Shown piece by piece: positions 2,551 to 31,772 of a stretch of DNA of 32,413 nucleotides (the stretch's first letter is position 1; each line of letters opens with the position of its first letter). The notes under the pieces are model-generated. The model was not told where the DNA came from. It saw only the letters and a program-made list of their open reading frames with translations, and made no database searches. The stretch lies in NCBI GenBank assembly GCA_938006875.1, contig CALLMJ010000034.1, positions 1 through 32,413 on the forward strand, written 5' to 3'. This DNA is from an uncultured Bacteroidia bacterium. Lineage in GTDB: Bacteria; Bacteroidota; Bacteroidia; J057; CALLMJ01. The position numbers and the translations under genes are program-made.

Positions 2551-3645
2551 TTATTCCCTTATTCTTACCCCACGAATATGCGAAGAACCAGTATTGAAAA
2601 ATCCAAGAACTTTTTGTTTATTTAAGGATTTTATATTAGTTATGATATTTTCAGGAGTTCTAGCAAATAAACCTCCGTTGGTCATTTCTGATTGGGCTTG
2701 ATTTAAGAAAATCCATGTTTCTTTATTTAAAGAATAAATTTCTACTGCTAAACTATCCCCTACATTTAAACCATTATCAGGATTGATAGCAAAAACTGCA
2801 ATATTGGGAGTAAAAAAGAAACCATCAGCACCTTCTCCACTGGCTCCATCTACTGCTAAATTAATTTGACTGGGGCGGGACAAAAATTTTCCGTTATAAT
2901 AACTTTTTAACCAATAATAATCTGGACCTCCCAAAGAATCTCTTGCAACAAGTCCAACAAAATATTTTCCTTTACTTTCCCCAAAACCGTTTTCATTTTT
3001 TTCGTATAAAAATGTATCAATTACAGTAGTACGATTTAATCTACTATAAGATTCGTATTCATTTCCATTGATATTCACCCAGAGTTTATATTCATGATTA
3101 ACTTTAAAAAATGGATTTAAACTGTCTGGTAAATAGTTATAATTTCCATTGCCAATGGGGTTAAAAATCACTGTATCTTGGGTAGTCAGATTGATAATTT
3201 TTACGATAGCGTTATTTTCTGTAGGGGTTTCAGAATTAGAAAAATAAGGAGCAGAATAAGAAATTCTTATATTTTGAGGGGTTGGTTGGTCATTTAAGAA
3301 AGCGTCAATAACTAAGTATTTTTCGCCATCTTTTAAATTTACATCAACTACATCTTCACAACTAATAAGGAATAAAGAGGATATAAACAATAAGAAACGA
3401 AGTTTAGGAGTAAGCGTAAGGGATACGAAGGGCTTGGTACTGCCTTTTAATGATGAGTTTAGAGAAGCATAAAAAGGATTGTGATACATTGAGTTCATAG
3501 AAATGCTGAAACAAAGTGAAACCCACTTTGGCAAGCTCAGCGTAAACTCAACTAGCCCTACCTGAGCGTAGCGAAGGGCACGCCCAAATATTTTTAATAC
3601 ATTTCTTGCCTCTGTTTTTATGTTTCTTTTCATACGATTTTCCAA
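2551..3645 (-). CDS. DUF4249-domain lipoprotein with repeat-derived N-terminal extension
   Basis: 364 residues as an open frame. The body from about residue 95 (CEDVVDVNLKDGEKYLVIDA) is the DUF4249 family, a periplasmic or surface lipoprotein routinely encoded beside a TonB-dependent receptor, as here, where the receptor stop directly abuts this start. A lipoprotein signal (LRFLLFISSLFLISC) is found only at residues 81-95. Residues about 20-80 are the translation of a dispersed repeat copy (see 3413-3585). Translation from the first ATG would put a lipobox 95 residues in. The internal ATGs at residues 50 and 53 would shorten this to a roughly 45-residue leader. The repeat contains no stop in this frame, so the gene may still work. 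Function is unknown beyond the receptor partnership. Confidence 0.85.
   Translation of the reverse strand: MENRMKRNIKTEARNVLKIFGRALRYAQVGLVEFTLSLPKWVSLCFSISMNSMYHNPFYASLNSSLKGSTKPFVSLTLTPKLRFLLFISSLFLISCEDVVDVNLKDGEKYLVIDAFLNDQPTPQNIRISYSAPYFSNSETPTENNAIVKIINLTTQDTVIFNPIGNGNYNYLPDSLNPFFKVNHEYKLWVNINGNEYESYSRLNRTTVIDTFLYEKNENGFGESKGKYFVGLVARDSLGGPDYYWLKSYYNGKFLSRPSQINLAVDGASGEGADGFFFTPNIAVFAINPDNGLNVGDSLAVEIYSLNKETWIFLNQAQSEMTNGGLFARTPENIITNIKSLNKQKVLGFFNTGSSHIRGVRIRE
3413..3585 (-). repeat. Dispersed mosaic repeat, copy A, inside the 5' end of the DUF4249 gene
   Basis: Read on the minus strand it starts GGGCGTGCCCTTCGCTACGC and ends CCCTTACGCTTAC. The middle contains a block (TTTACGCTGAGCTTGCC, AAGTGGGTTTCACT, GTTTCAGCATT) shared with copy B at 10871. 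Both ends match other copies in this window. It is visibly richer in G+C than the flanking coding DNA. Confidence 0.8.
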
Positions 3646-5988
3646 TTAAAAGTTAAAGTTATAAGTTACCGCTGGAACAAATGAACCAATTACTGAATAA
3701 CGCACTGCCTCCGTTTCTAAATTATTGTTTTTGTTAGAACGGAAATAAATAGAGAAAGGATTTCTACGATTGTAAACGTTGTAAACAGAAAATACCCACT
3801 CGCTTTGAAAGCGTTTTCCTTCTTTTTGCTTACCGCTTAATGTTGCGGATAAATCTAAACGATGGTAATCAGGGACTCTAAAATTATTACGTTTTTCGGT
3901 AGAATTATAAGGAATTACATAACCTTGAATTTGTACTCTGGTATCAGGAAAAGTAGCTGGTGTACCAGATAAATATACAAAGTTTGCAGAAAAAGACCAT
4001 CTTTTATTGAGTTCGTAAGTTAAAACGGTGTTAAGGTTGTGAGGTCTATCAAAACGAGTTGGGAACCATTCATTTTGGCTAATTCCATTGGTTTTTCTTT
4101 CTGTTTTTGATAAAGTATAACTAACCCAACCAGTAAGTTTTCCTTTATTTTTTTTGATGTAAAATTCTGCTCCATAGGCTCTTCCTATTCCTTGCAATAA
4201 ATCTCCTTCTAATTTTTCGTTAAGTAATAAATTTGCATTAGGAACAAAATCTAAAAGGTTGTCTAAAGATTTATAATAAACTTCTACGGAGGTTTCAAAA
4301 GCATTGTTAGCAAAATTTCTGAAATATCCTATAGCGAACTGGTCAGCAATTTGAGGTTTTATGTTATTGGTGGAAATAGTCCAAATATCAATAGGTGTTG
4401 GTGCTGCGGTATTAGAAACTAAATGTAAATATTGAACCATTCTGTTATAACTAGTTTTGATAGAAGAATTTTCGTCTAAATCAAATTTTAAAGAGATACG
4501 AGGTTCTGGATTGTAATAAGCTTTAATCAGTTCTAAAGAATTATAAGATTGAGTGGTTAATAATCTACGAGAAACGGCTTCGTTAGTGTCTGCAAAAGTA
4601 TAAGCATCGCCTTTTCCGATAAAATGAAATCCTGAAAAACGTATTCCATATTCTGCGGCTATTCTATCAGAAATTTTCCATTCATGATTGAGGTATAAAC
4701 CTGATTCTATTCCATAACGATGTTTCAAGCTAAGATTAAAACTCAAATCTTCTGACGTTACTTTTGCATTACCAGGCTGCATGTGGAATAAAATAGATTG
4801 ATAACCAAATTTCACTTTATGTTTATCACTAACAAACCATGTAAAATCGGGTTTAACACTATAATTAATAATTTTTGCTTTCCAATCAAAACCTTGCCCT
4901 TGTTCATCGGTAAATTTAAGTTTATAATCGTAATTACTGTAAAACGCTGTTAAGTTTAGGAATAATTTAGGATTAATGACCCTGTTCCAACGAACTGTTG
5001 TTGTGGCGTTACCCCAATTAAATTTGAAACCTGCACCAAAAACATCTCTTCCAAAATAACCACTCACAAACAAAGTGTTTTTCTCATCAATAATATAATT
5101 CAGTTTCGCAGTTAGGTCATAGAAATAAAATTGAGCTTGTCTTAAATCTTTGTTAAGAAAAGGTTTTGCAAGCACATCAATATAAGAACGCCTTGCAGCA
5201 ACAATAAAAGAGGCTTTGTCCTTGATGATAGGTCCTTCCACAGAAAAACGGCTAAAAATGGTTCCTATGCCTCCTTTGTATTCAAATTTTCTGTTATTTC
5301 CTTCTTTCATACGAATATCTAACAAAGAGGAAAGCCTTCCTCCGTATACAGATGGTATACCTCCTTTTACAAGTTTTACATCTTTGACTGCATCAGGGTT
5401 AAAAACTGAAAAAAATCCAAACAAATGAGAAGAGTTAAAAACAGGAGCTTCATCTAATAGAATTAAGTTTTGGTCTATATTGCCACCTCTTACATTAAAT
5501 CCAGAAGCACCTTCCCCCACTGTGCTAACTCCGGGTAATAGTTGAATACTTCTGATAATATCCACTTCACCGAGTAAAGCAGGCATTTTTTGAATAAATT
5601 TAATATCCAATTTATTAACAGACATTTCAATTGATTTGATGTTTTCGTCTTCTTTTTTGTCTGTGATTACTACTTCCTCACCTTCAATGATTTCTTCAGA
5701 AAGCTCAATATCTAACTTGGTATTTTTTTCCAAATTGATTTCTTTTTCAACTTTTTTGTATCCAATATAAGAAAAAACAATGTTGTGATTACCTTTTGGT
5801 AAAGACAAGGAATAATAACCATATTCATTGGTATTTACGCCTACATTGGAACCTGATTTATAGACGGTAACACCGATAAGTTTTTCTCCTGATTTTGAGT
5901 CTTTTACGTATCCGCTCAGTACTAATTTTTCTTGAGCAAACATAGTAAACGATAAAAACAAAAAGAAAACTAAGGAAACTGATTTCAT
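3646..5988 (-). CDS. TonB-dependent receptor with N-terminal carboxypeptidase-regulatory-like domain
   Basis: About 780 residues from the ATG at 5988. I prefer this start to the track start at 6126 because it begins a signal peptide (MKSVSLVFFLFLSFTMFAQ). Domains in order: a CarboxypepD_reg-like beta-sandwich (LSGYVKDSKSGEKLIGVTVY...GYYSLSLPKG, about residues 24-105), a plug (MPALLGEVDIIRSIQLLPGV, GFNVRGGNIDQNLILLDEAP), then a 22-strand-type barrel ending in YNFNF with a terminal aromatic. It imports an unknown ligand using the TonB system. The next gene downstream is its DUF4249 lipoprotein, the usual genetic partner. Such pairs are loosely FecA-like or SusC/D-like in arrangement, but the substrate cannot be told from the sequence. 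Confidence 0.93.
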   Translation of the reverse strand: MKSVSLVFFLFLSFTMFAQEKLVLSGYVKDSKSGEKLIGVTVYKSGSNVGVNTNEYGYYSLSLPKGNHNIVFSYIGYKKVEKEINLEKNTKLDIELSEEIIEGEEVVITDKKEDENIKSIEMSVNKLDIKFIQKMPALLGEVDIIRSIQLLPGVSTVGEGASGFNVRGGNIDQNLILLDEAPVFNSSHLFGFFSVFNPDAVKDVKLVKGGIPSVYGGRLSSLLDIRMKEGNNRKFEYKGGIGTIFSRFSVEGPIIKDKASFIVAARRSYIDVLAKPFLNKDLRQAQFYFYDLTAKLNYIIDEKNTLFVSGYFGRDVFGAGFKFNWGNATTTVRWNRVINPKLFLNLTAFYSNYDYKLKFTDEQGQGFDWKAKIINYSVKPDFTWFVSDKHKVKFGYQSILFHMQPGNAKVTSEDLSFNLSLKHRYGIESGLYLNHEWKISDRIAAEYGIRFSGFHFIGKGDAYTFADTNEAVSRRLLTTQSYNSLELIKAYYNPEPRISLKFDLDENSSIKTSYNRMVQYLHLVSNTAAPTPIDIWTISTNNIKPQIADQFAIGYFRNFANNAFETSVEVYYKSLDNLLDFVPNANLLLNEKLEGDLLQGIGRAYGAEFYIKKNKGKLTGWVSYTLSKTERKTNGISQNEWFPTRFDRPHNLNTVLTYELNKRWSFSANFVYLSGTPATFPDTRVQIQGYVIPYNSTEKRNNFRVPDYHRLDLSATLSGKQKEGKRFQSEWVFSVYNVYNRRNPFSIYFRSNKNNNLETEAVRYSVIGSFVPAVTYNFNF

Positions 5989-6110
5989 TACTTTTAGTTT
6001 TTCAAAAACAAAATTGATAACAAAAACAGAAATAAATAAGTTCAAAGTGATAAATGGCAAAAAAATGAAATAATCGTTAAATGTAGTTTTTTCTATGGGG
6101 GTGGTTATTC

Positions 6111-8024
6111 TTATTTCCATTTCCATTGAATACCAAATAAAAAGTTACGACCCGGCATAGGGCGATTTTTCATAACTTGGTACTCTAAATTCCATAAATT
6201 TTTTAATTGAAGATTTGTGCTAATTTCATGTTTTTTGTAATAAAATTGATAAGAACTCACGAAATTTCCTATAAAAAAGTCTGGTAACCATTCTGAATTA
6301 TCGGTTGTATAAAAAACATAACTATTCCAAATTTGTTGATATTGTAGAAATAGATTTTTATAATTCCATGAAAATTGGGCATTCCAACGATATTTTGGCT
6401 GATAAATTAACTGTTTAAGATACGCTTCATCATTAGGAAATCTTTCTTGTTTTAAGATAGAATGACCATAAAAACCACTAAATTCTAAAATCCATTGATG
6501 ATTACGATAATGAAAAAAAGTTTTTCCAAAAAATTCCAATCCTTGTGATTGAGTTTGATTCATATTTTGGGCAGACCACAAAGAACCTACGGGCAACCAA
6601 ATGATTAAATCTTGGTATTTCCCTGAATAATAGGTAAGTTGTAACTGATAATTTGATTTTTTATAACCTAATATAGCTTCATATTGAAAACCTTTTTCGG
6701 GTTTCAAATTAGGGTTCCCTCCAACCTGCCAATACAAATCATTCAAAGAAGGATAACGATAAGTATTTCCTAAACTGGCTTTTATGTACCCATGAGAAAT
6801 AAAATTCCAATTTCCTGATAAATTAAAAATTGGGATAATCCATTGATTTTGTATATTTTCTTGACGAAAAGTAAAATGATATTTCCATTTTTGATTTTTG
6901 GTTTGAAATTGATGTGTCCCTATGAAACTATATCTTTTCCATATTTTAGGTAAAACCATTGTTGAATTGGGTTCAGGAAAAATCCAATGATTTTGAATTT
7001 GTAACTGAAAAAAATTTTGTAGATTTGAATATTGAAAATAATGGTCTGAGAACCATTGGTGGCTTAAATAATTACTAAAAATTTGAGCAATAGAATCTTC
7101 ATAATATAATTCATCTTTTAAATAGCTTTGCTGGCTTGAAAATTTGATTTTTCCCAAAAATGTTTGATAAAAAAATTGTAATCTTAAATTACTATCTTTT
7201 TGGTTCTGAGCAGAAGTATCGGAAGTCATAACAGAAGGAATTTGATTTTGAGATTGATGTTTCCATAAATGTAGTTCAATAATATTTTTTTTCCATACTG
7301 TTTTATAATCTAATTGTAAACCATAATTTTGAGTTTGAGCATGTTTTAAAATTTCTTTAGGGCTTCCCCATTTTTCACGATTGATATAAGGGAAATTATT
7401 ATTAGCAAACATTCTATAAGCTTGAATTTGAATTTTATGGTTTTGAATTGAGGGTTGTAAAAATAAAGATTGGTGATTAAGACCAAAACTTCCAATTTGA
7501 TGCTGAAATTGAAATTTATAAGGTAGTATCCAATTAGGAATTATTAATAATGAACTACTAGCACCAGCGCCCCATAAAGCTGGATTTGCACCTCTTAATA
7601 TAGATAAATTTATTGAATTAATAGGTATTTGTGAAAAATCAAAAGTTCCATTAAATGGACTTTGTATCGGTACTCCATTCCATAAAACTTGGCTTTGATT
7701 AGCTGTATTTCCTCTGTATGCTATAGTATTTAATTGACCTTTACCATAATTTTTGATATAAAATAATCCTTCCATTTCAAGCCATTCCGATACTCGCTGA
7801 TTAAAAAAAATCTTATGTTTGATACTATCTAAATTAAAAACTTCTTGACCAACAGATGACAATTCCCATTTTTGTTCAATAATAGAAATTTCGGGAAGAA
7901 AATATTGTTTATATACAGTATCATTTTGGGCATTAAGAAATGAAAAAAAAGAAATATACACTAATTTTATTAAAAAAGAATATTTTTCTTTCCATTTAAA
8001 CCCCAAATAAATTTTGATTTTCAT
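6111..8024 (-). CDS. TonB-dependent plug-domain receptor (BtuB-like architecture)
   Basis: 637 residues, outer membrane. It has an N-terminal hydrophobic stretch (about residues 17-32, ending LNAQ) that serves as a signal peptide, then a short plug (LPEISIIEQKWELSS, IAYRGNTANQSQVLWNGVPI, NLSILRGANPALWGAGASS), and a barrel ending in a terminal aromatic (FLFGIQWKWK). Unlike the neighbouring receptor it lacks the carboxypeptidase-regulatory domain, so it resembles the BtuB/cirA size class. I looked for a cobalamin riboswitch upstream and found none, so a B12 role is not supported. A TATTTTTG promoter box lies only five bases before the ATG, suggesting a very short or absent leader. There is a gap of about 120 bases to the next receptor gene, which is on the same strand. 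Confidence 0.88.
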   Translation of the reverse strand: MKIKIYLGFKWKEKYSFLIKLVYISFFSFLNAQNDTVYKQYFLPEISIIEQKWELSSVGQEVFNLDSIKHKIFFNQRVSEWLEMEGLFYIKNYGKGQLNTIAYRGNTANQSQVLWNGVPIQSPFNGTFDFSQIPINSINLSILRGANPALWGAGASSSLLIIPNWILPYKFQFQHQIGSFGLNHQSLFLQPSIQNHKIQIQAYRMFANNNFPYINREKWGSPKEILKHAQTQNYGLQLDYKTVWKKNIIELHLWKHQSQNQIPSVMTSDTSAQNQKDSNLRLQFFYQTFLGKIKFSSQQSYLKDELYYEDSIAQIFSNYLSHQWFSDHYFQYSNLQNFFQLQIQNHWIFPEPNSTMVLPKIWKRYSFIGTHQFQTKNQKWKYHFTFRQENIQNQWIIPIFNLSGNWNFISHGYIKASLGNTYRYPSLNDLYWQVGGNPNLKPEKGFQYEAILGYKKSNYQLQLTYYSGKYQDLIIWLPVGSLWSAQNMNQTQSQGLEFFGKTFFHYRNHQWILEFSGFYGHSILKQERFPNDEAYLKQLIYQPKYRWNAQFSWNYKNLFLQYQQIWNSYVFYTTDNSEWLPDFFIGNFVSSYQFYYKKHEISTNLQLKNLWNLEYQVMKNRPMPGRNFLFGIQWKWK

Positions 8025-8585: not shown

Positions 8586-10040
8586 TTGGAAAAAATTCAA
8601 AAACAAATAAAAAGTTTAGATACCAAATTATTAGCCATTGTCTTTGGAATGGTTGTAATATTTTCTTTGAGTTTCATAATGATTAATAAATCTTTGCTTC
8701 TTTTTGCAGTAGGTTTAGCATGCATTGTGATTACATTTAGTTTTTATAACTTTAAATATCTTTGGTATTTAGGGGTTTTGGGTATGCCTATAAGTTTAGA
8801 ACTAAGCGAATTGATAGGAGATTCAGCATTAACTGTTCCTTCTGATTTAATTGCAGTAGGATTTTCTTTACTTTTCTTACTTAAAGCGCCTTCCTATAAA
8901 GAAGATTTACAGAAAATATTCTCACACCCAATTACTATTGCTATATCATTATATTTTTTATGGATGGTACTCACTTCCATTTTTGCGGAAAAACCCATTG
9001 TTGCTTTTAAATTTACACTCAATACTTATTGGTATCTTTCTACTTACTTTTTTTGGACGATTCTTTTTTTAAAAGACAACAAAAAAGATTTTTATAATTG
9101 GCTTTATATTATTTTAATACCCATTTGTTTTGTGGTTTTTTTTACGATGTTCAAACATGGTTTAAAAGGATTTAGTAAACAAGCATCTTACTATATCATG
9201 CGTCCATTTTATAAAGAACATACTGCTTATGCCGCTTCCATTGCTGTTTTTGTGCCTATTTATTATATTTTAGCTATTTACGGAAATTTCAAAAAATGGA
9301 TAAAAATTGTTTTTTTTATAGCATCTACGATTTTAATTCTTGGTGTAATTACATCGTTTACTAGAGGAGCTTGGTTAGGAATATTAGTTGCAATAGCAAC
9401 ATTTTGGGCTTTAAAATTTTGGGGTTTTACTCGTGTGATTATTCCTTTTTCTTTGCCGTTTCTTGCTGGATTTATGGTTTTTTTTGGTGCTGATGTGTTT
9501 TTTTCATTTTCTAATACGGGTAATGCTACCAATCAAGGATTAACCAAACATATTAAATCCATTATTAATTTAAGAACCGATGAATCTAACAAAGAACGTA
9601 TTAACCGTTGGGTAGCAGCAAGAGGCATGTTAGAAGATAGACCCATGACGGGTTTCGGTCCTGGAAATTATGCTATGACTTATGCCCCTTTTCAACAATA
9701 TGAATTTATGACTTCTATCAGCACATTCAGAGGTGATGGAGGTACCGCACATAGTGAATTTTTCTTGGCGGCTTCTGAAATGGGCTATTTAGGTCTTATT
9801 TTAGTAATTATTTGGTTTTCTACTACCATTATTAAAGGTTTTCAAGCGGTTCTTAGAACCCAAAATGATGAAAATCGTTATCTTTACATGGCAGCTTTAA
9901 CCGGTCTTATGACTTACTTTGTTCATGCTTTTTTCAATAATTTTTTAGACCAAGACAAAGTTGCTATTCCCGTATATTTTTGTATGGCTATGATTGTTGC
10001 TTTAGATACTTTTTATAAAAATCCTTTTCATGATAATTAA
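8586..10040 (+). CDS. O-antigen ligase-like / Wzy-type polytopic membrane protein
   Basis: 484 residues with about 12 hydrophobic segments. A large hydrophilic loop at about residues 315-400 contains NKERINRWVAARGMLEDRP and GFGPGNYAMTYAPF. That loop with its G-x-G-x-x-N/R-x-x region is the hallmark of the Wzy_C/O-antigen ligase family (PF04932). Such proteins transfer or polymerise undecaprenyl-linked glycans at the periplasmic face of the inner membrane. The start appears to be TTG at 8586, placed well behind the promoter at 8536-8566; the first in-frame ATG would remove part of the N-terminus. The 3' end overlaps lgt by 11 bases, so they are translationally linked. Whether it is a ligase, a polymerase or a protein O-glycosyltransferase cannot be decided from sequence alone. 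Confidence 0.85.
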   Translation: MEKIQKQIKSLDTKLLAIVFGMVVIFSLSFIMINKSLLLFAVGLACIVITFSFYNFKYLWYLGVLGMPISLELSELIGDSALTVPSDLIAVGFSLLFLLKAPSYKEDLQKIFSHPITIAISLYFLWMVLTSIFAEKPIVAFKFTLNTYWYLSTYFFWTILFLKDNKKDFYNWLYIILIPICFVVFFTMFKHGLKGFSKQASYYIMRPFYKEHTAYAASIAVFVPIYYILAIYGNFKKWIKIVFFIASTILILGVITSFTRGAWLGILVAIATFWALKFWGFTRVIIPFSLPFLAGFMVFFGADVFFSFSNTGNATNQGLTKHIKSIINLRTDESNKERINRWVAARGMLEDRPMTGFGPGNYAMTYAPFQQYEFMTSISTFRGDGGTAHSEFFLAASEMGYLGLILVIIWFSTTIIKGFQAVLRTQNDENRYLYMAALTGLMTYFVHAFFNNFLDQDKVAIPVYFCMAMIVALDTFYKNPFHDN

Positions 10041-10860
10041 TCTTTTAAATTACATTACTTGGAACGTAAATCCTGTAGTTGTAGAAATTCTAGGTAGAGA
10101 AATTCGCTGGTATGGAATTTTATTTGCTCTGGGATTTGTTGTTGGGCATTATTTAATGACCAAAATCTTTGAAATTGAAAAAATTGATATAAAAAATTTA
10201 GATGCTCTTACATACTACATGATTTTTAGTACAGTCATTGGTGCAAGACTTGGGCATTGTTTTTTTTATGAGCCTAAATATTACTTAGCCAATCCTGCTG
10301 AGATTATTGCCATTTGGAAAGGTGGTTTAGCCTCTCATGGAGCGGCTATTGGTATTTTACTTGCTTTATGGCTTTATTCTCGTTCAAGACCAGAACAACC
10401 TTTTCTTTGGGTAGTAGATAGAATCGTTATTACAGTTGCATTCGCTGGTGTTTGTATAAGATTAGGAAATCTCATGAATCATGAAATTATTGGTAAACCT
10501 ACTGATGTACCTTGGGCTTTTATTTTTACATTAGTTGATGACCAACCTAGGCACCCTTCTCAACTCTATGAAGCCATTTGTTATGCTTTTATTTTCCTAT
10601 TTTTATATCGCTTATATTTCAGAAAATATACTACTCAAACACCTCTTGGGCTTTTATTTGGTTGGTTTTTGGTATTAATTTTTGGCGTTAGAATTTTAGT
10701 TGAGTTTTTAAAAGAAGACCAAGTAATCAACGAACAAGATTTAGTGATTATTCCCGGATTAAACATGGGGCAAAACTTGAGTATCCCTTTTGTTCTATTA
10801 GGTATTTATTTGATTTATAACGCATATAAAAAATACCCTTCTAAAAATTTAGATGCTTAA
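10030..10860 (+). CDS. lgt: Prolipoprotein diacylglyceryl transferase
   Basis: 276 residues, inner membrane, first enzyme of lipoprotein maturation: it moves diacylglycerol from phosphatidylglycerol to the lipobox cysteine. Visible family signatures are IRWYGILFALGFVVG near the N-terminus, GARLGHCFFYEP, KGGLASHGAAIG (conserved His region), the IRLGNLMNHEIIG signature that matches GRxGNxxNxE, and RHPSQLYEA. Length and membrane layout are normal. It overlaps the upstream ligase gene by 11 bases, and its stop overlaps the nominal start of the next ORF by 8 bases. Lipoproteins are plentiful in this window (DUF4249, the 27888 gene), consistent with a housekeeping role. Confidence 0.97.
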   Translation: MIINLLNYITWNVNPVVVEILGREIRWYGILFALGFVVGHYLMTKIFEIEKIDIKNLDALTYYMIFSTVIGARLGHCFFYEPKYYLANPAEIIAIWKGGLASHGAAIGILLALWLYSRSRPEQPFLWVVDRIVITVAFAGVCIRLGNLMNHEIIGKPTDVPWAFIFTLVDDQPRHPSQLYEAICYAFIFLFLYRLYFRKYTTQTPLGLLFGWFLVLIFGVRILVEFLKEDQVINEQDLVIIPGLNMGQNLSIPFVLLGIYLIYNAYKKYPSKNLDA

Positions 10861-11824
10861 AAGTATCATTTGGGCGTTCCCCTTGCTACGCTGCGGGTCG
10901 GGCTGTTACGTTTACACTGATCTTGCCGAAGTGGGTTTTACATCGTTTCAGCATTACGGTAAACTCAGCATCAAAAGGCTTTACCACTTTGTGGTCAATG
11001 AGTATTATCGAATTGTACCCTACACCTCCCTCACGCTTACTTTATGCTTTGCATTCCTTTTCCCTTTTTATTCTTTTGCTCAACAAACTGCTCCCCAAGA
11101 TACTATTCCCTCCCAGTTTCAAAAAATACTCAAAAAAATGAAGTACAAATGGGTAAATGATGCCCTTTGGCAAACCGGTAACGTAGAAAGGTTTTTATAC
11201 AACACCAATTTTCAATGGATTTTTAATGACAGCCTTTTAGATTTTGAAATTAAACCGCGTTTTAGTTATGGTGAAGTAACTCAAAAACAAAATGATAAAA
11301 TCATCAAAGGAGTAGTTCAAGAAAGAGAACAAATTCTGGATTTACATTTCGGGTTATTTTCTCAAAAAAGAATTTATGGATTTAGTTTTGGTACTTTTGA
11401 AAGAAGTAATTTGAGAAAAATCCATTTTAGGTGGCAAACAGGTATAGGTGTAGGTTGGCATATTCTAAAAACCCAAAATAAAAATCAAAGATTAAACTTG
11501 ACCGCTGCATTATTACGAGAAGAAACTGATTTTATCAATCCTAAACAAGCAGATTATAAAATTTTTAGAGCTTCTATAAGGCTTAGAGGGCGTCATGTAT
11601 TTTTTAATAATCGTTTAATAGTCACATATTTAACTACTTATATGCCGTCTGTTGCTTTTGATAATAATAAGCGACTTACAAGCAATGTTTCTGTTGAAGT
11701 TCCTATAAGTAAAAAAATACAGTTAAGAAGTAGTTTTGATTATACTTATGAAGGAATTGTTCCTCAAAATGTTAAAAAAACTGATACAAGAACTTTAGTA
11801 GGATTAGTATTCGGAAATATGTAA
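10853..11824 (+). CDS. DUF481-like outer-membrane barrel protein with repeat-derived N-terminus
   Basis: 323 codons as an open frame. The body (from about residue 97, MKYKWVNDALWQTGNVERFLYN) resembles the DUF481 / YdiY salt-induced outer-membrane family: alternating strands with FEIKPRFSYGEVTQ, QILDLHFGLFSQKRIYG and a C-terminal LVGLVFGNM. A secretion signal, LTLTLCFAFLFPFYSFAQ, occurs only at residues about 59-77. Everything before it (residues about 6-58) is the translation of repeat copy B. The authentic start was therefore probably lost or displaced by the repeat. Translation may begin at the ATG overlapping the lgt stop, giving an unusually long leader, or at a non-ATG codon closer to the signal. 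The function of the family is unknown. Confidence 0.75.
   Translation: MLKSIIWAFPLLRCGSGCYVYTDLAEVGFTSFQHYGKLSIKRLYHFVVNEYYRIVPYTSLTLTLCFAFLFPFYSFAQQTAPQDTIPSQFQKILKKMKYKWVNDALWQTGNVERFLYNTNFQWIFNDSLLDFEIKPRFSYGEVTQKQNDKIIKGVVQEREQILDLHFGLFSQKRIYGFSFGTFERSNLRKIHFRWQTGIGVGWHILKTQNKNQRLNLTAALLREETDFINPKQADYKIFRASIRLRGRHVFFNNRLIVTYLTTYMPSVAFDNNKRLTSNVSVEVPISKKIQLRSSFDYTYEGIVPQNVKKTDTRTLVGLVFGNM
10871..11040 (+). repeat. Dispersed mosaic repeat, copy B, inside the 5' end of the DUF481-like gene
   Basis: Starts TGGGCGTTCCCCTTGCTACG, continues with GCGGGTCGGGCTGTTACG, and shares the central block TTGCCGAAGTGGGTTTTAC...GTTTCAGCATT with copy A. It ends CCCTCACGCTTAC. It is read in a different frame from copy A, again without a stop codon. 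Confidence 0.8.
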
Positions 11825-18569: not shown

Positions 18570-19097
18570 TTAGGGTTTTTCTTTGAGTTTTATAAGAGCA
18601 AATATAGCATAATTTACGCAATCTATATAATTATTTTCTATACCTTCAGAAGCCATTAATTCTTTTTGGTGGTCTTCAATTTGCTTGATTCTTAATAGTT
18701 TGACCAAAATCATATCGGTAAATGAAGGAACACGCATTTCTCTCCAAGCTTCACCATAATCATGATTTTTTTTTAACATCGTTTCATAACATAATTTTAC
18801 TTGCTGGTTATAACATTCTAATAAATCATTTTGAATTTGATTTTCTGAGCATCTTGCTAAAATCAAAGCCATTAAACTATAATTAATAATTCCAATATAC
18901 TCTCCTTCTATATTTTCTCCTACTAAGTTTACTTGTGTATCTTCAATCGAACGTATTCTTTTGGCTTTAATGTATATTTGGTCTGTTAAAGAGGGAAGCC
19001 TAAATACTGTCCAAGAAGTTCCATAATCATGATTTTTTTTTAAGAAAAGATCTTTACAGTGGTCAATAATTTCAAAATATTGCTGTTCTGTATTCAT
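18570..19097 (-). CDS. DUF1599 (nucleotide modification-associated domain 1) protein, tandem duplicated
   Basis: 175 residues made of two copies of the same roughly 75-residue unit. Unit 1 (about 8-83) has LKKNHDYGTSWTVFR, SLTDQIYIKAKRIRSIED and INYSLMALILAR. Unit 2 (about 95-172) has LKKNHDYGEAWREMR, SFTDMILVKLLRIKQIED and VNYAIFALIKL. This is the DUF1599/Nmad1 family, placed by others near the dCTP/all-alpha NTP pyrophosphohydrolase-like world; its biochemical role here is unproven. Bacteroidota homologues commonly carry both units. It lies between the MlaD-family and helical-repeat genes with gaps of 12 and 9 bases, so it is an operon member. Confidence 0.85.
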   Translation of the reverse strand: MNTEQQYFEIIDHCKDLFLKKNHDYGTSWTVFRLPSLTDQIYIKAKRIRSIEDTQVNLVGENIEGEYIGIINYSLMALILARCSENQIQNDLLECYNQQVKLCYETMLKKNHDYGEAWREMRVPSFTDMILVKLLRIKQIEDHQKELMASEGIENNYIDCVNYAIFALIKLKEKP

Positions 19098-21038: not shown

Positions 21039-21982
21039 AGAAAGTTATTCATTACCTTATAGAATTTTATCAAGAACATCCTAAAAAAAACTTTCTTTTT
21101 GCTTTGATGAGTTTTAATGGGGTATGTATTTTTTTGAATTATTACTTTAACTTTGAATCCAACTATATCAATAATCCGAATGTTTATCAAGGGTGGCATT
21201 TCTTGTATTATTTTCTTTTTTATGGATTTGCTTGGTTAAGTACTTTTGGAATTTACCACTATTTTTATCCAGAAAAAAAAATCTTTCAAAACTTTCATTT
21301 TTGGTGGATTAGTTTAATTATACTTTTGATTTTTACGGTATATGTAAATTTTGATTTTTTTTATCGTTATTGGGTTTATGAAAATGTTCATTATGATGTT
21401 CAATATTTTGTGATGAAATGTTTAAATAACACCATGAAACCCATTTTAATTTTGCCGATTATTTATTTTTATTGGAGTTATTATGACCGTAAGCACAATG
21501 CAAGTTTTTATGGTTTATTCCCAAAACAAAAACAAGACTTAAAATTATATTTTTTGATGTTTACGATTATGATACCCTTAGTCGTTGGGGCATCTTTTAC
21601 TAATGATTTTTTGAATCAATATCCACGTTATTTACCTGAAAATAGTGATGCGGAAGAGTATTTAGGTTGGAAAGACTGGCAAACTTCTTTATTGTTTGAG
21701 TGGTGTTATGGTATTGACTTTGTTTTTATTGAATTGTTTTTTAGAGGCTTTGTGATTTTTGCATTAATCAGATATGTAGGAAACTGTGTAATATTTGCTA
21801 TGGCAACGGTTTATGTATTTATACATTTTGAAAAGCCTTTAGGAGAAACTATCGGTTCATTTTTCGGCGGATTAATATTAGGAGTTTTATCCTCTAAAAC
21901 GGATAGTATTTGGGGAGGTATTGTTATACATTTAGGAATAGCCTGGTTAATGGAAGCGGCAGCTTGGGCTCATAGATTGTAA
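21035..21982 (+). CDS. CPBP-family intramembrane metalloprotease-like protein (Abi/Rce1 type)
   Basis: 315 residues with about eight hydrophobic helices. CPBP motifs are present but diverged: IELFFRGF (ExxxR, Glu about residue 233), FIHFEKPLGE (His of the second motif) and VIHLGIAWLME (His of a later helix). The usual first motif has two adjacent Glu; here it is Ile-Glu, so activity is uncertain. Family members cleave prenylated or membrane peptides, process bacteriocins, or act in self-immunity. Coupled by ATGA to the 20415 gene. The last roughly 65 bases of coding sequence plus the following repeat occur again, inverted and decayed, at 31603-31772, the other side of the accessory segment. 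Confidence 0.8.
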   Translation: MKKVIHYLIEFYQEHPKKNFLFALMSFNGVCIFLNYYFNFESNYINNPNVYQGWHFLYYFLFYGFAWLSTFGIYHYFYPEKKIFQNFHFWWISLIILLIFTVYVNFDFFYRYWVYENVHYDVQYFVMKCLNNTMKPILILPIIYFYWSYYDRKHNASFYGLFPKQKQDLKLYFLMFTIMIPLVVGASFTNDFLNQYPRYLPENSDAEEYLGWKDWQTSLLFEWCYGIDFVFIELFFRGFVIFALIRYVGNCVIFAMATVYVFIHFEKPLGETIGSFFGGLILGVLSSKTDSIWGGIVIHLGIAWLMEAAAWAHRL

Positions 21983-22067
21983 TGCTTTTCAAACGTTTTA
22001 TGCGTGAGGGACGCCTTTGTCCGCGAAGCATAAGTGCCCAACCCGCAGCGTATCAAGGCAAAAAAAT
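21918..22067 (+). repeat. Left arm of a long inverted duplication (CPBP 3' end plus mosaic repeat)
   Basis: This 150-base block, covering the last CPBP codons, the stop and repeat copy D, matches the reverse complement of 31603-31751 with only scattered differences. A second exact 22-base block (21731-21752) matches 31751-31772, so the right arm is a copy with about 165 bases deleted. Confidence 0.9.
22001..22059 (-). repeat. Dispersed mosaic repeat, copy D (short form)
   Basis: On the minus strand GCCTTGATACGCTGCGGGTT followed by GGGCACTTATGCTTCGCGG and the end GTCCCTCACGCA. It lacks the first bases (GGGCGT) of the longer copies. It lies 19 bases after the CPBP stop. Confidence 0.8.
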
Positions 22068-22107
22068 ACCTTTCTTTCTAAATTGTATAACCAAAAACAA
22101 TTACAAT

Positions 22108-22649: not shown

Positions 22650-24341
22650 ATGGAAACTATCAACAACACATCAATAAAAACAATCAACGATTTACTGAAA
22701 TCTAATTTCTTTATACCGTCTTATCAAAGAGGATATCGTTGGACGGAGCAACAAGTAACAGATTTGTTGAATGATGTATGGGAATTCATAAATAAACCCA
22801 ATAAAAAAGATGATGAATGGTACTGTTTGCAACCAGTTGTAGTAATCAAGAGCGATGATGATACAAAAAACAAAAATGATTTAATTGGAGATTGGCACGA
22901 TGTAATTGACGGACAGCAACGATTAACAACAATATTTCTTATCTTAAAAAACTTAGAACGCTTTGTCGAAAGTGAAAGAAAAAATTTCAAAATACAATAT
23001 GAAACAAGAAAAGGCAGTGAAGAATTTTTGATAGAAATAGACAAAAAATTAGAAGATGATTCAAAAATAAATGTTGATTATTTTCATATTTACGATGCTT
23101 ACACAACTATTAAGACCTGGTTTCAAAAAAAAGCAAATGAAGGGCAAACCTCAATAAGTTCAAAGTTTATTACGCCGTTTTTAGAGAAAGTTAAAATCAT
23201 TTGGTACGAAACTACGGACTCTGACTCTATAGGTATTTTTACGAGAATAAACAGCGGAAAGATTCCTCTAACAAATGCCGAATTGATTAAGGCTTTGTTT
23301 CTGAATAGCTCCAATTTTGCCAATGCAGACAGCGAAAAATTACGTTTGAAACAATTAGAAATTGCTTCAGAATGGGATAGAATGGAATATGCCTTACAAA
23401 ACGATTCTTTTTGGTATTTCATCAACAAAAACGAAAACAAACTGGCTACGAGAATAGAGTTTATTTTCAATTTAATGGCAGATAAGCCAAGTGATGATAA
23501 TTATTCCACTTTCCATTTCTTTAATCAAAAATTTAAAACCAAATCGGAAGAAGAAATAAACGACAATTGGCAGGAAATTAAAAAGTATTTCCAAACCCTT
23601 GAAGAGTGGTACAATGACAGAGAATTATATCATAAAATTGGCTATCTGATTACAATTGGAACAGACATTAAAGATATACTCAATGAAAAAAAAGAGAAGT
23701 CAAAAAAAGAATTTACGAATTGGATTAACCAACAAATAAAATCCCAATTTAAAGATGTGAATTTGGAAGAAGTCGAATATAACGGAAAATATGTTCGTGA
23801 AATTTTATTGCTTCACAACATACAAACTATGCTCAACAACGAAAACGAAACCAATCGCTTCCCTTTTGACCGATATAAAAAAGAGCATTGGGACGTTGAA
23901 CACATTCACGCAATTGCTACGGAAGTGAAAGTAAAAAAAGAAAATCAAGTTGAATGGTTAAAAAATAACTTCATCAAAACAGATAATCATCAAGACGAAA
24001 GTAAAAATACACAAATTGAGGAAATCATCCGTACAGGAAATGCAATTGATGAAAATGAATTTGAAGAACTTATTGGCTATATTTTGGGCGAAGAAGATAA
24101 CAGATTGAAAAACCTGTGTTTATTAGATAGTGGAACTAATCGTTCTTACAAAAACGATTCTTTCAAGGAAAAAAGGAGAAAAATAATTAAAAGAGAAATG
24201 GAGGGAACTTTTATTCCAATTTGCACAAAGAATGTATTTATGAAATTTTATTCTAATGATGTAAGAGGAATTGAAATTTGGAATGATACCGATAGAAAAT
24301 CGTATTTTAAAAATATACAAGAAGTAATTAAAAGTATTTAA
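22650..24341 (+). CDS. DUF262 and DUF1524 (HNH) protein, GmrSD-type
   Basis: 563 residues. N-terminal DUF262 domain with IPSYQRGYRW (about 22-31) and VIDGQQRLTTIF (about 85-96), the ParB-like nucleotide-binding/NTPase motifs of GmrS and related proteins, followed by a helical linker with SIGIFTRINSGKIPLTNAEL. The C-terminal DUF1524 nuclease part shows WDVEHIHAIATE (HNH His, about residue 417) and LKNLCLLDSGTNRSYKNDSF (Asn of HNH, about 485-505), then FKEKRRKI. GmrSD is a type IV, modification-dependent restriction enzyme; related DUF262 nucleases serve in other phage defences. First gene of a three-gene operon. The fused order (S then D) is common. The target is unknown. Confidence 0.93.
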   Translation: METINNTSIKTINDLLKSNFFIPSYQRGYRWTEQQVTDLLNDVWEFINKPNKKDDEWYCLQPVVVIKSDDDTKNKNDLIGDWHDVIDGQQRLTTIFLILKNLERFVESERKNFKIQYETRKGSEEFLIEIDKKLEDDSKINVDYFHIYDAYTTIKTWFQKKANEGQTSISSKFITPFLEKVKIIWYETTDSDSIGIFTRINSGKIPLTNAELIKALFLNSSNFANADSEKLRLKQLEIASEWDRMEYALQNDSFWYFINKNENKLATRIEFIFNLMADKPSDDNYSTFHFFNQKFKTKSEEEINDNWQEIKKYFQTLEEWYNDRELYHKIGYLITIGTDIKDILNEKKEKSKKEFTNWINQQIKSQFKDVNLEEVEYNGKYVREILLLHNIQTMLNNENETNRFPFDRYKKEHWDVEHIHAIATEVKVKKENQVEWLKNNFIKTDNHQDESKNTQIEEIIRTGNAIDENEFEELIGYILGEEDNRLKNLCLLDSGTNRSYKNDSFKEKRRKIIKREMEGTFIPICTKNVFMKFYSNDVRGIEIWNDTDRKSYFKNIQEVIKSI

Positions 24342-24372
24342 CTCAAAACGACATCAGCAGAAAATACAGAAA

Positions 24373-26598
24373 ATGAACAATAATCCAACATCAAAAAAAT
24401 TAAACTTCCTGCAATTGCTTTCTAATGATATAGTTATTGCTGAAAATGAAACTTGGCAACCACTAAGCAAAATTGAAATTCCCATTATACAACGAGATTA
24501 TGCACAAGGCAGAGAGGGGAAAGAAGAACTAAGAAAAAACTTTTTAAATGCTTTACGTAAAGCAATTGATGATAAACCGTTGGAATTAGATTTTGTTTAC
24601 GGAAGTGTAAAAAACAAGGTTTTGCAACCGCTTGACGGACAACAACGATTAACCACTCTGTTTTTGTTGCATTGGTTTGTAGCTGTTAAAGAAAACAAGT
24701 TAGATGATGAACTAAAAAAATTATTGACAAAATTCACTTACGAAACTCGTACAAGTTCCAGAGAATTTTGCATTGATTTAATCAATAAAAGCATTATTTA
24801 CAATGCTGAACAAAAAATTTCAGAAATAATTATTGACAGTTCTTGGTTTTTCCTTTCATGGAAAAGAGACCCTACAATAAAATCAATGCTTACAATGTTG
24901 GATTCTATTCAGCATACTTTTAAAGATAAAACAGATGTTTGGGACAAGCTAAACAAGATTAGCTTTCATTACATAGAACTACAAAACTTCGGACTTTCCG
25001 ATGATTTGTATATCAAGATGAACGCAAGAGGAAAACCGCTTACTGATTTTGAAAATTTCAAAGCAAAGTTTGAGCAACACATAAAGCAAAACAAATGGGA
25101 AACCAACATGCCCCCAACTGAAACATTTTCATACAAAATTGATACGGATTGGACAGATTTGTTTTGGAATTATCGTGATGAAACCGTAAATGTTTTTGAC
25201 GAACAGCTTTTGAATTTTTTCAGAACAATGGCTATAATAAATTATGCACTAAAAGCAAAAAATACCAAAGATGATGAATTTAGTAACAATATTACATTGT
25301 TAAGAGATAGCAAAAAAGCAATTTCATTCAATCAATATGTAGAAATGGGCTGTATTGATGAAGATTATTTTAAAATGTTGAAATCCATTTTAAATAAAAT
25401 ATCTAACAAAAAAGGATTGAAAACATTTCTTTCCGATACAACTTATGCAGATGAAAAAGAAATTTTCAATGGTGCAATTAAAAATAATTTATCGTATCCC
25501 GACTTGGTAATTGCATTTGCATACTATCAGTTTTTAGTATTGGAAGAAGACATTAAAACAGAAGATTTAATAAGTTGGCTACGAATTGTTCGCAATCTTG
25601 TTGAAGGGAGCAGATCTTATTTGTTCAATGATGCCAATGATTTTGCGAATGCAATACGCTCTATAAACAAATTATTGCCAGAAAGAAAGCACATTTTACA
25701 ATATTTTGAAATACTTGAAGATAATTCACTCCCGGGCTTTATCGGCGAACAAGTGAGAGAAGAAAAGCTAAAAGCAAAACTTATTATGCAAGATGATAAT
25801 TGGAAAAACGCAATCCTTGAAATTGAAAATCACGGATATTTCAAAGGACAAATCGGCTTTATTTTGGATTGGTGTGAAGACAAAAACGGAGTACCCCATA
25901 TCGATAAATTCAAAGTATACGCAGAAAAAGCAAAAGCCGTATTTAGTGATAAAGGATTGAAAAACTTTAAAGATTATCTTTTTGAAAGAGCCTTGTTAGC
26001 AACAGGAGATTATTTGTTATATAGTCGTAATAATTATAGTTTCTTAATCGACAACCATCGTGATATCAGTTGGAAAAGATTATTGAGGGGTGATAATGAT
26101 AATAATAATGGGAAAAGAAGTGTTTTAAAATCACTCTTTGATAAAATTGAGCCAACAATCTTAATCGAAAATTTAGAACAAATCGTTAATGAATTTTTAT
26201 CTGATTCGAAGAATATTAATGATTGGAGATACTATTTCATAAAATACCCTGAAATCATTTCCGCTTGCGGAAATCAAAAACTTATACGTTTCAACGATAA
26301 GAATGAATTTGACATTCTTTTGTTAGGTTCAACAACAACAGCAGGATACCACAAAGAATATTATTCGTATTCTCTTTTTATAGAGTTGAAACATAAACTT
26401 TCATTGGACGAGAGCCAATATAAAGACCAAAGATCAGTAAATGAGTGGAAATATTTTGAATTAGATGATGGTAAGCAAATCGCTTTTGATTGTCAATCCC
26501 AAAAATATGTTTGGACAAAAAACAACGACTGGGACAAAAAACAAGCATATAACGATAAAGAAACTGCAATTTTAGAACTTACAAAAACGAAACAGTAA
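24373..26598 (+). CDS. Second DUF262 protein with a long C-terminal region
   Basis: 741 residues. The DUF262 domain is at the N-terminus: EIPIIQRDYAQGR (about 35-47), PLDGQQRLTTLFLLHW (about 86-101) and DLYIKMNARGKPLTDFENFK, a later conserved block. No HNH/DUF1524 end is seen, unlike the gene before it. From about 530 a separate region starts FERALLATGDY, SWKRLLRG, WRYYFIKYPEI, which I find again in the next protein. After that, FDILLLG...YSLFIELK recalls the Asp...ExK order of PD-(D/E)xK nucleases, but this is weak. It starts 31 bases after the first gene and its stop overlaps the third start (TAATG). Probably the sensor or partner subunit of a multi-protein defence complex. Confidence 0.85.
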   Translation: MNNNPTSKKLNFLQLLSNDIVIAENETWQPLSKIEIPIIQRDYAQGREGKEELRKNFLNALRKAIDDKPLELDFVYGSVKNKVLQPLDGQQRLTTLFLLHWFVAVKENKLDDELKKLLTKFTYETRTSSREFCIDLINKSIIYNAEQKISEIIIDSSWFFLSWKRDPTIKSMLTMLDSIQHTFKDKTDVWDKLNKISFHYIELQNFGLSDDLYIKMNARGKPLTDFENFKAKFEQHIKQNKWETNMPPTETFSYKIDTDWTDLFWNYRDETVNVFDEQLLNFFRTMAIINYALKAKNTKDDEFSNNITLLRDSKKAISFNQYVEMGCIDEDYFKMLKSILNKISNKKGLKTFLSDTTYADEKEIFNGAIKNNLSYPDLVIAFAYYQFLVLEEDIKTEDLISWLRIVRNLVEGSRSYLFNDANDFANAIRSINKLLPERKHILQYFEILEDNSLPGFIGEQVREEKLKAKLIMQDDNWKNAILEIENHGYFKGQIGFILDWCEDKNGVPHIDKFKVYAEKAKAVFSDKGLKNFKDYLFERALLATGDYLLYSRNNYSFLIDNHRDISWKRLLRGDNDNNNGKRSVLKSLFDKIEPTILIENLEQIVNEFLSDSKNINDWRYYFIKYPEIISACGNQKLIRFNDKNEFDILLLGSTTTAGYHKEYYSYSLFIELKHKLSLDESQYKDQRSVNEWKYFELDDGKQIAFDCQSQKYVWTKNNDWDKKQAYNDKETAILELTKTKQ

Positions 26599-31561: not shown

Positions 31562-31602
31562 ATTTTTTTTTTACAAAAATAAAAATTGAAATGAAGAAAG
31601 TG

Positions 31603-31772
31603 ATTTTTTTGCCTTGCTACGCTGCGGGTCGGGCACTTATGCTTCGTGGACAAAGGTGCCCCTCACGCATAAAACGTTTGAAAAGCATTACAATCTATTA
31701 GCCCAAGCTGCCGCTTCATTAACCAGGCTATGCCTAAATGTATAGCAATACAAAGCCTCTAAAAAACAATTC
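31603..31772 (-). pseudogene. Decayed inverted copy of the CPBP 3' end with mosaic repeat (right arm)
   Basis: Read on the minus strand this is a CPBP fragment: GAATTGTTTTTTAGAGGCTT from the ExxxR region, a deletion of about 165 bases, then the final codons (AAAWANRL, stop) and repeat copy E. Compared with 21918-22067 it has a handful of substitutions and a one-base deletion in the AATGGAAGCGG stretch (AATGAAGCGG here), which shifts the frame. It is therefore a non-functional duplicate, about 9.6 kb from the original in opposite orientation. The deletion joint shares a GT with both sides. Confidence 0.85.
31611..31669 (+). repeat. Dispersed mosaic repeat, copy E (short form)
   Basis: GCCTTGCTACGCTGCGGGTC, then GGGCACTTATGCTTCGTGG and the CCCTCACGCA end. 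It is nearly identical to copy D in opposite orientation, with four or so differences, and like D lacks the first GGGCGT. Confidence 0.8.

Follow-up and report, generated by a model that had tools for sequence, protein, structure and literature searches.

Rickettsia palindromic elements, small dispersed repeats of about 150 bp, reside in frame inside protein genes and are apparently tolerated there (PMC10969869). Long signal sequences, in which an N-terminal extension precedes a normal secretion signal, have been described for autotransporters, where they exceed 40 residues and reach 55 residues in EspP (PMC2805444). We analyzed a stretch of 32,413 nucleotides (the window; contig CALLMJ010000034.1) from the genome of an uncultured Bacteroidia bacterium (GCA_938006875.1, G000), in which two exported proteins appear to carry a repeat-encoded leader. 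The Rickettsia elements, which the preliminary description of this DNA had aptly cited as the precedent for repeats inserted in frame, are the nearest known case, likened here by description rather than by sequence comparison to RPE families. As in Rickettsia, a repeat is inserted in frame into protein-coding genes, here at nine loci of the genome. Unlike in Rickettsia, the in-frame cases are restricted, as far as seen, to the n-regions of export signals and lie mostly beside an upstream stop codon, more than one reading frame of the repeat is used, the repeat-encoded residues should be absent from the mature protein, and the host belongs to a different phylum. With the autotransporter signals our case shares the extension ahead of an ordinary signal; those, however, serve one secretion pathway, whereas here unrelated proteins are extended by repeat DNA. 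MITE- and REP-type bacterial repeats are likewise short, multi-copy and mostly intergenic, but the present repeat lacks clear terminal inverted repeats or duplications, and no Y1 (RAYT-type) transposase accompanies it in G000 or in G001, a MAG of an uncultured Bacteroidia bacterium that represents the sister species. In the literature that we searched, whose coverage is incomplete, we did not encounter a description of repeats that are restricted to the n-regions of signal peptides.

At the first of the two loci in the window (locus A; Table 1), the minus-strand frame at 2551-3645 comprises 364 codons when counted from TTG 3645 and 360 codons from ATG 3633, contains no stop, and encodes a product that matches DUF4249 (PF14054, 6.4e-19). 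From the ATG, the frame runs through about 15 codons into repeat copy A, leads out of the repeat into KLRFLLFISSLFLISC, and continues through the lipobox with its cysteine into the DUF4249 domain. That the frame crosses the repeat without a stop ahead of the signal peptide, and that the lipobox lies about 95 residues from the start, had been stated in the preliminary description; both statements hold, the lipobox Cys being residue 96 in TTG numbering and residue 92 in ATG numbering. The ATGs that had been listed at residues 50 and 53 are real as well (TTG numbering); both lie within the repeat, and the stretch from residue 53 to the hydrophobic core, including everything behind the repeat, holds no further ATG. 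Since lipobox, hydrophobic core, DUF4249 domain and TonB-receptor neighbor are all in place, the product is a lipoprotein by sequence, and its lipidation is predicted. An example of the predicted leader peptides is YAQVGLVEFTLSLPK.

Table 1. Coordinates of the repeat copies and of the genes around them in the window.
Feature	Position	Strand	Remarks
DUF4249 lipoprotein gene (locus A)	2551..3633	-	from ATG 3633; PF14054; 77% identical to the G001 orthologue
Predicted start of the mature DUF4249 lipoprotein	Cys at 3360-3358	-	
Signal peptide core and lipobox, KLRFLLFISSLFLIS followed by C	3358..3405	-	right behind the repeat; without an ATG of its own
Repeat copy A, head TTTGGGCGTGCCC.., tail ..CGTATCCCTTACGC	3414..3589	-	in frame with the DUF4249 gene; 176 nt
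Codons preceding repeat copy A, MKRNIKTEARNVLKI	3590..3633	-	directly after the TonB-receptor stop; start position common to G001 (MKKIVIK...)
TonB-dependent receptor partner, upstream	3646..6126	-	stop codon 12 nt ahead of the DUF4249 ATG; gene order identical in G001
DUF481 protein gene (locus B)	10853..11824	+	start overlaps the stop of the preceding gene (10030-10860); repeat copy B, then signal peptide ending ..SFA before QQ
Repeat copy B	10868..11042	+	read in a frame other than that of copy A

Searched with the repeat consensus, the G000 genome gives about 69 chained matches; copy A is among these, and some are short. The repeat measures about 110-220 nt; its copies lie mostly near gene 3' ends or between convergent genes and tend to sit just 3' of a stop codon, with the orientation of the upstream gene. 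The consensus has fairly open sense frames and folds into a branched structure of -55 kcal/mol, a value calculated without a shuffled control. Head and tail display short complementarity only, as judged by eye, terminal inverted repeats are not clear, and a possible duplication of 4-5 bp flanks the repeat at locus L064 only. Rfam gave no match to a known RNA family. The repeat was presumably once mobile; we considered a RAYT transposase as its mobilizer and rejected it, because Y1_Tnp (PF01797) finds no match in G000 or G001 (5 of 14 control genomes do match). Among 295 genomes searched in the class, one other (G098, from another family) contains an element that agrees with the repeat in head and tail, present there in at least 21 copies with head GGGCGTGTCCCTCGCTGCGCTTCGGGTCGGGC, tail CCCTCACGC and a different middle (L146-L157); most of the copies read are intergenic, and none of those inspected is fused to a signal peptide. 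Within the window, the stretches 21953-22076 and 31594-31717 form an inverted pair (94%). The pair holds the terminal part of a CPBP-like membrane protease gene plus a short relative of the repeat that shares its head and tail; the second copy seems to be a gene end that was displaced and lacks the rest of the gene.

The arrangement at locus A is wider than the preliminary description had stated, as copy B does likewise to a DUF481 protein. Across the genome, a same-sense repeat copy precedes a signal peptide and is in frame with it at nine loci (A, B, L039, L051, L055, L057, L064, L107 and L126), two of which (A and B) are inside the window. L057 encodes a Porin_10 protein, L064 an NHL-OmpA protein, and L107 a di-haem peroxidase lipoprotein; L041 was excluded because it keeps its own ATG beside the signal peptide. 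The fused genes read the repeat in two or more frames, copy B in another frame than copy A, so that the repeat does not constitute a fixed coding module of its own. All nine fused genes look exported, compared with 5 of 18 hand-classified same-sense genes whose start lies behind a copy (Fisher p = 0.0006). An ORF-independent scan, from which L051 is missing since it falls under the length limit, returned eight genes whose signal peptide closely follows a same-sense copy, with no ATG after the copy; in each of the eight the frame is open to an ATG before the repeat. Antisense copies yielded no fused signal-peptide genes in the same scan.

These figures bear on the reading that the joined frames are a product of chance, in which a mostly open intergenic repeat happens to connect with the frame behind it while the true starts are non-canonical codons beside the signal peptide. 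The fairly open consensus would suit such an origin, as would apparent TTG starts in a few non-repeat genes and an open leader that locus A possesses in G001 without any repeat. However, in the control set (non-fused copies with a minimum length of 110 nt), only 30 of 120 sense frames (25%) are open, whereas 8/8 scanned loci have an open path, for which the probability would be about 0.25^8 = 1.5e-5 (openness alone, and a guide only, as the copies are related); moreover, 57 of 77 scanned signal-peptide-like ORFs possess an ATG no more than 15 residues from the core. We therefore regard chance as a most improbable explanation.

Cleavage sites behind the repeats are intact. In every fused gene of the SPI type (B, L039, L055, L057, L064 and L126), Gln follows Ala or Ser at the presumed cleavage site, as read from the sequence; Gln just after the cleavage site is the Q-rule of Bacteroidetes SPI substrates (PMC5837995). 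Lys or Arg is found within about 12 residues before the hydrophobic cores. With the repeat in frame ahead of them, the signal peptides of the fused proteins appear to gain about 40-75 extra translated residues, which are presumably removed on export.

Comparison with G001 revealed orthologues without the repeat at eight of the nine loci, and at most of these the start codon occupies the same place beside the upstream stop. At L064, for instance, MKWNKH, the repeat and ILAFFLLFFSLSLNAQ (ILAFF..) in G000 stand against MKWNNHIFLLLSLFFFHLNAQ (MKWNNHIFLLL..) in G001, and at locus B, MLKSII followed by the repeat stands against a repeat-free MVKFIRLG... The ATG of L051 overlaps the upstream gene in both species; L107 has no coupled upstream gene, and its start positions in the two species are not clearly homologous. 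A chimeric assembly at the repeat is unlikely, since the upstream gene is also the neighbor in G001 at several loci (A, B, L051 and L126). At the ninth locus, L126, the G001 orthologue contains the repeat at the same position and in frame (profile E = 7e-15), which reflects either one insertion that predates the species split and stayed open through near-saturating synonymous divergence, or two independent insertions at the same site. The G001 leader of L126 holds a single in-frame ATG/GTG/TTG in total, and this codon is located upstream of the repeat; hence, translation must cross the repeat there, unless a rarer start codon is used.

This observation is pertinent to the possibility that the repeat donates the start codon. 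Initiation would then occur at an ATG or GTG within the repeat (MNSMYHNPF.. at locus A; the consensus ATGAGTATTATC in several others), the n-region would be of normal or moderately extended length, and the upstream frame would be irrelevant. Internal ATG/GTG/TTG codons do exist in all nine G000 cases, and in L064, L107 and L126 an in-repeat ATG lies merely 0-13 residues ahead of the hydrophobic core; in most fused copies such codons would give a shorter signal peptide, which counts against translation through the whole repeat. A donated start nevertheless leaves the open, in-frame upstream half at 8/8 scanned loci unexplained, does not fit the G001 copy at L126, which is devoid of any internal ATG/GTG/TTG, and at locus A would still place the nearest ATG about 31 residues from the core. 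We consider it an unlikely, although serious, competitor.

The mature parts of the fused genes are under purifying selection: in seven of the eight mature regions compared between the two species, dN/dS is 0.07-0.2, with synonymous sites near saturation. For locus B, pN/pS is 0.25 with saturated synonymous sites, and for locus A, where the mature part of about 270 residues is intact, dN/dS is 0.12. It is against these values that the idea of a lost lipoprotein, in which the long leader blocks export and the DUF4249 gene is a decaying pseudogene or its product is mislocalized, has to be weighed. An n-region of about 79 residues is indeed far above the usual length, and the downstream ATG of G001 is absent from G000; on the other hand, lipobox and core are preserved together with the selected mature part, and the same layout recurs at eight other exported proteins, one of which has the insertion in G001 too. 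Loss of the lipoprotein is accordingly a very unlikely outcome.

Repeat-free orthologues with the same 80-residue leader had been named as the observation that would refute the preliminary reading. G001 comes near to this at locus A, but its leader is a different one: it begins at the first ATG, is open over about 54 residues and ends in an ATGATG directly before LRFL. This leader (L031 1090-1268) consists of unique DNA outside the repeat family, whose frame is nonetheless open up to the signal peptide; a degenerate repeat copy as its source was rejected, as neither BLAST nor a profile HMM finds anything. An open leader can hence come about with no repeat involved. The ancestral start of locus A may have been downstream, at ATGATG as in G001; with this start lost in G000 and the repeat in its place, initiation would fall to ATG 3633 or to a codon inside the repeat. 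Locus A is therefore the least tidy case, and the G001 leader weakens the claim for this locus alone, not the overall pattern.

The preliminary description had left a choice between an internal start and a lost lipoprotein. Both are less well supported than read-through with continued export, which is the better reading in view of the open path at 8/8 loci, the single start of L126 in G001, the Gln at +1 and the purifying selection; translation through the repeat with continued export thus probably resolves this choice. Our proposal, the simplest one, is based on position: the repeat would settle right after the stop codon of an upstream gene, and where the start of the next gene abuts or overlaps that stop, it would come to lie behind the start codon and ahead of the signal-peptide core. 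Only in-frame, stop-free insertions at exported proteins would survive, because there signal peptidase would discard the extra residues, which would merely lengthen the n-region and remain on the cytoplasmic side until cut off. The DUF4249 lipoprotein would be made from ATG 3633 with an n-region of about 79 residues and still be lipidated at Cys92. We judge this account, from the preference for stops to the persistence of the n-region cases, to be likely; it builds on the open frame, its recurrence, the start position common to the sister species and the conserved mature protein, and we infer from sequence the insertion by mobility, the actual use of the start and the actual export. With less assurance, we lean slightly towards the broader view that the family has repeatedly colonized export-signal n-regions genome-wide, that the Sec and lipoprotein machineries of this lineage accept signal peptides of about 75-95 residues, and that the n-region offers in-frame mobile DNA a safe harbor where gene pairs overlap. 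If true, the n-regions of signal peptides can accommodate tens of additional residues in vivo on unrelated proteins, and new translated leaders can come from mobile repeats with the mature protein unharmed. Gene callers and signal-peptide predictors may then mis-start or miss such proteins, and each fused locus would be a ready test of the allowed distance between start and signal.

Two further features of the window were observed. At 18570-19097, one small gene contains an internal duplication of 62-nt stretches that are 74% identical and 267 nt apart. At 22650-26598, two adjacent large genes look to be of the DUF262/GmrSD type, which we take to be possibly a defense locus.
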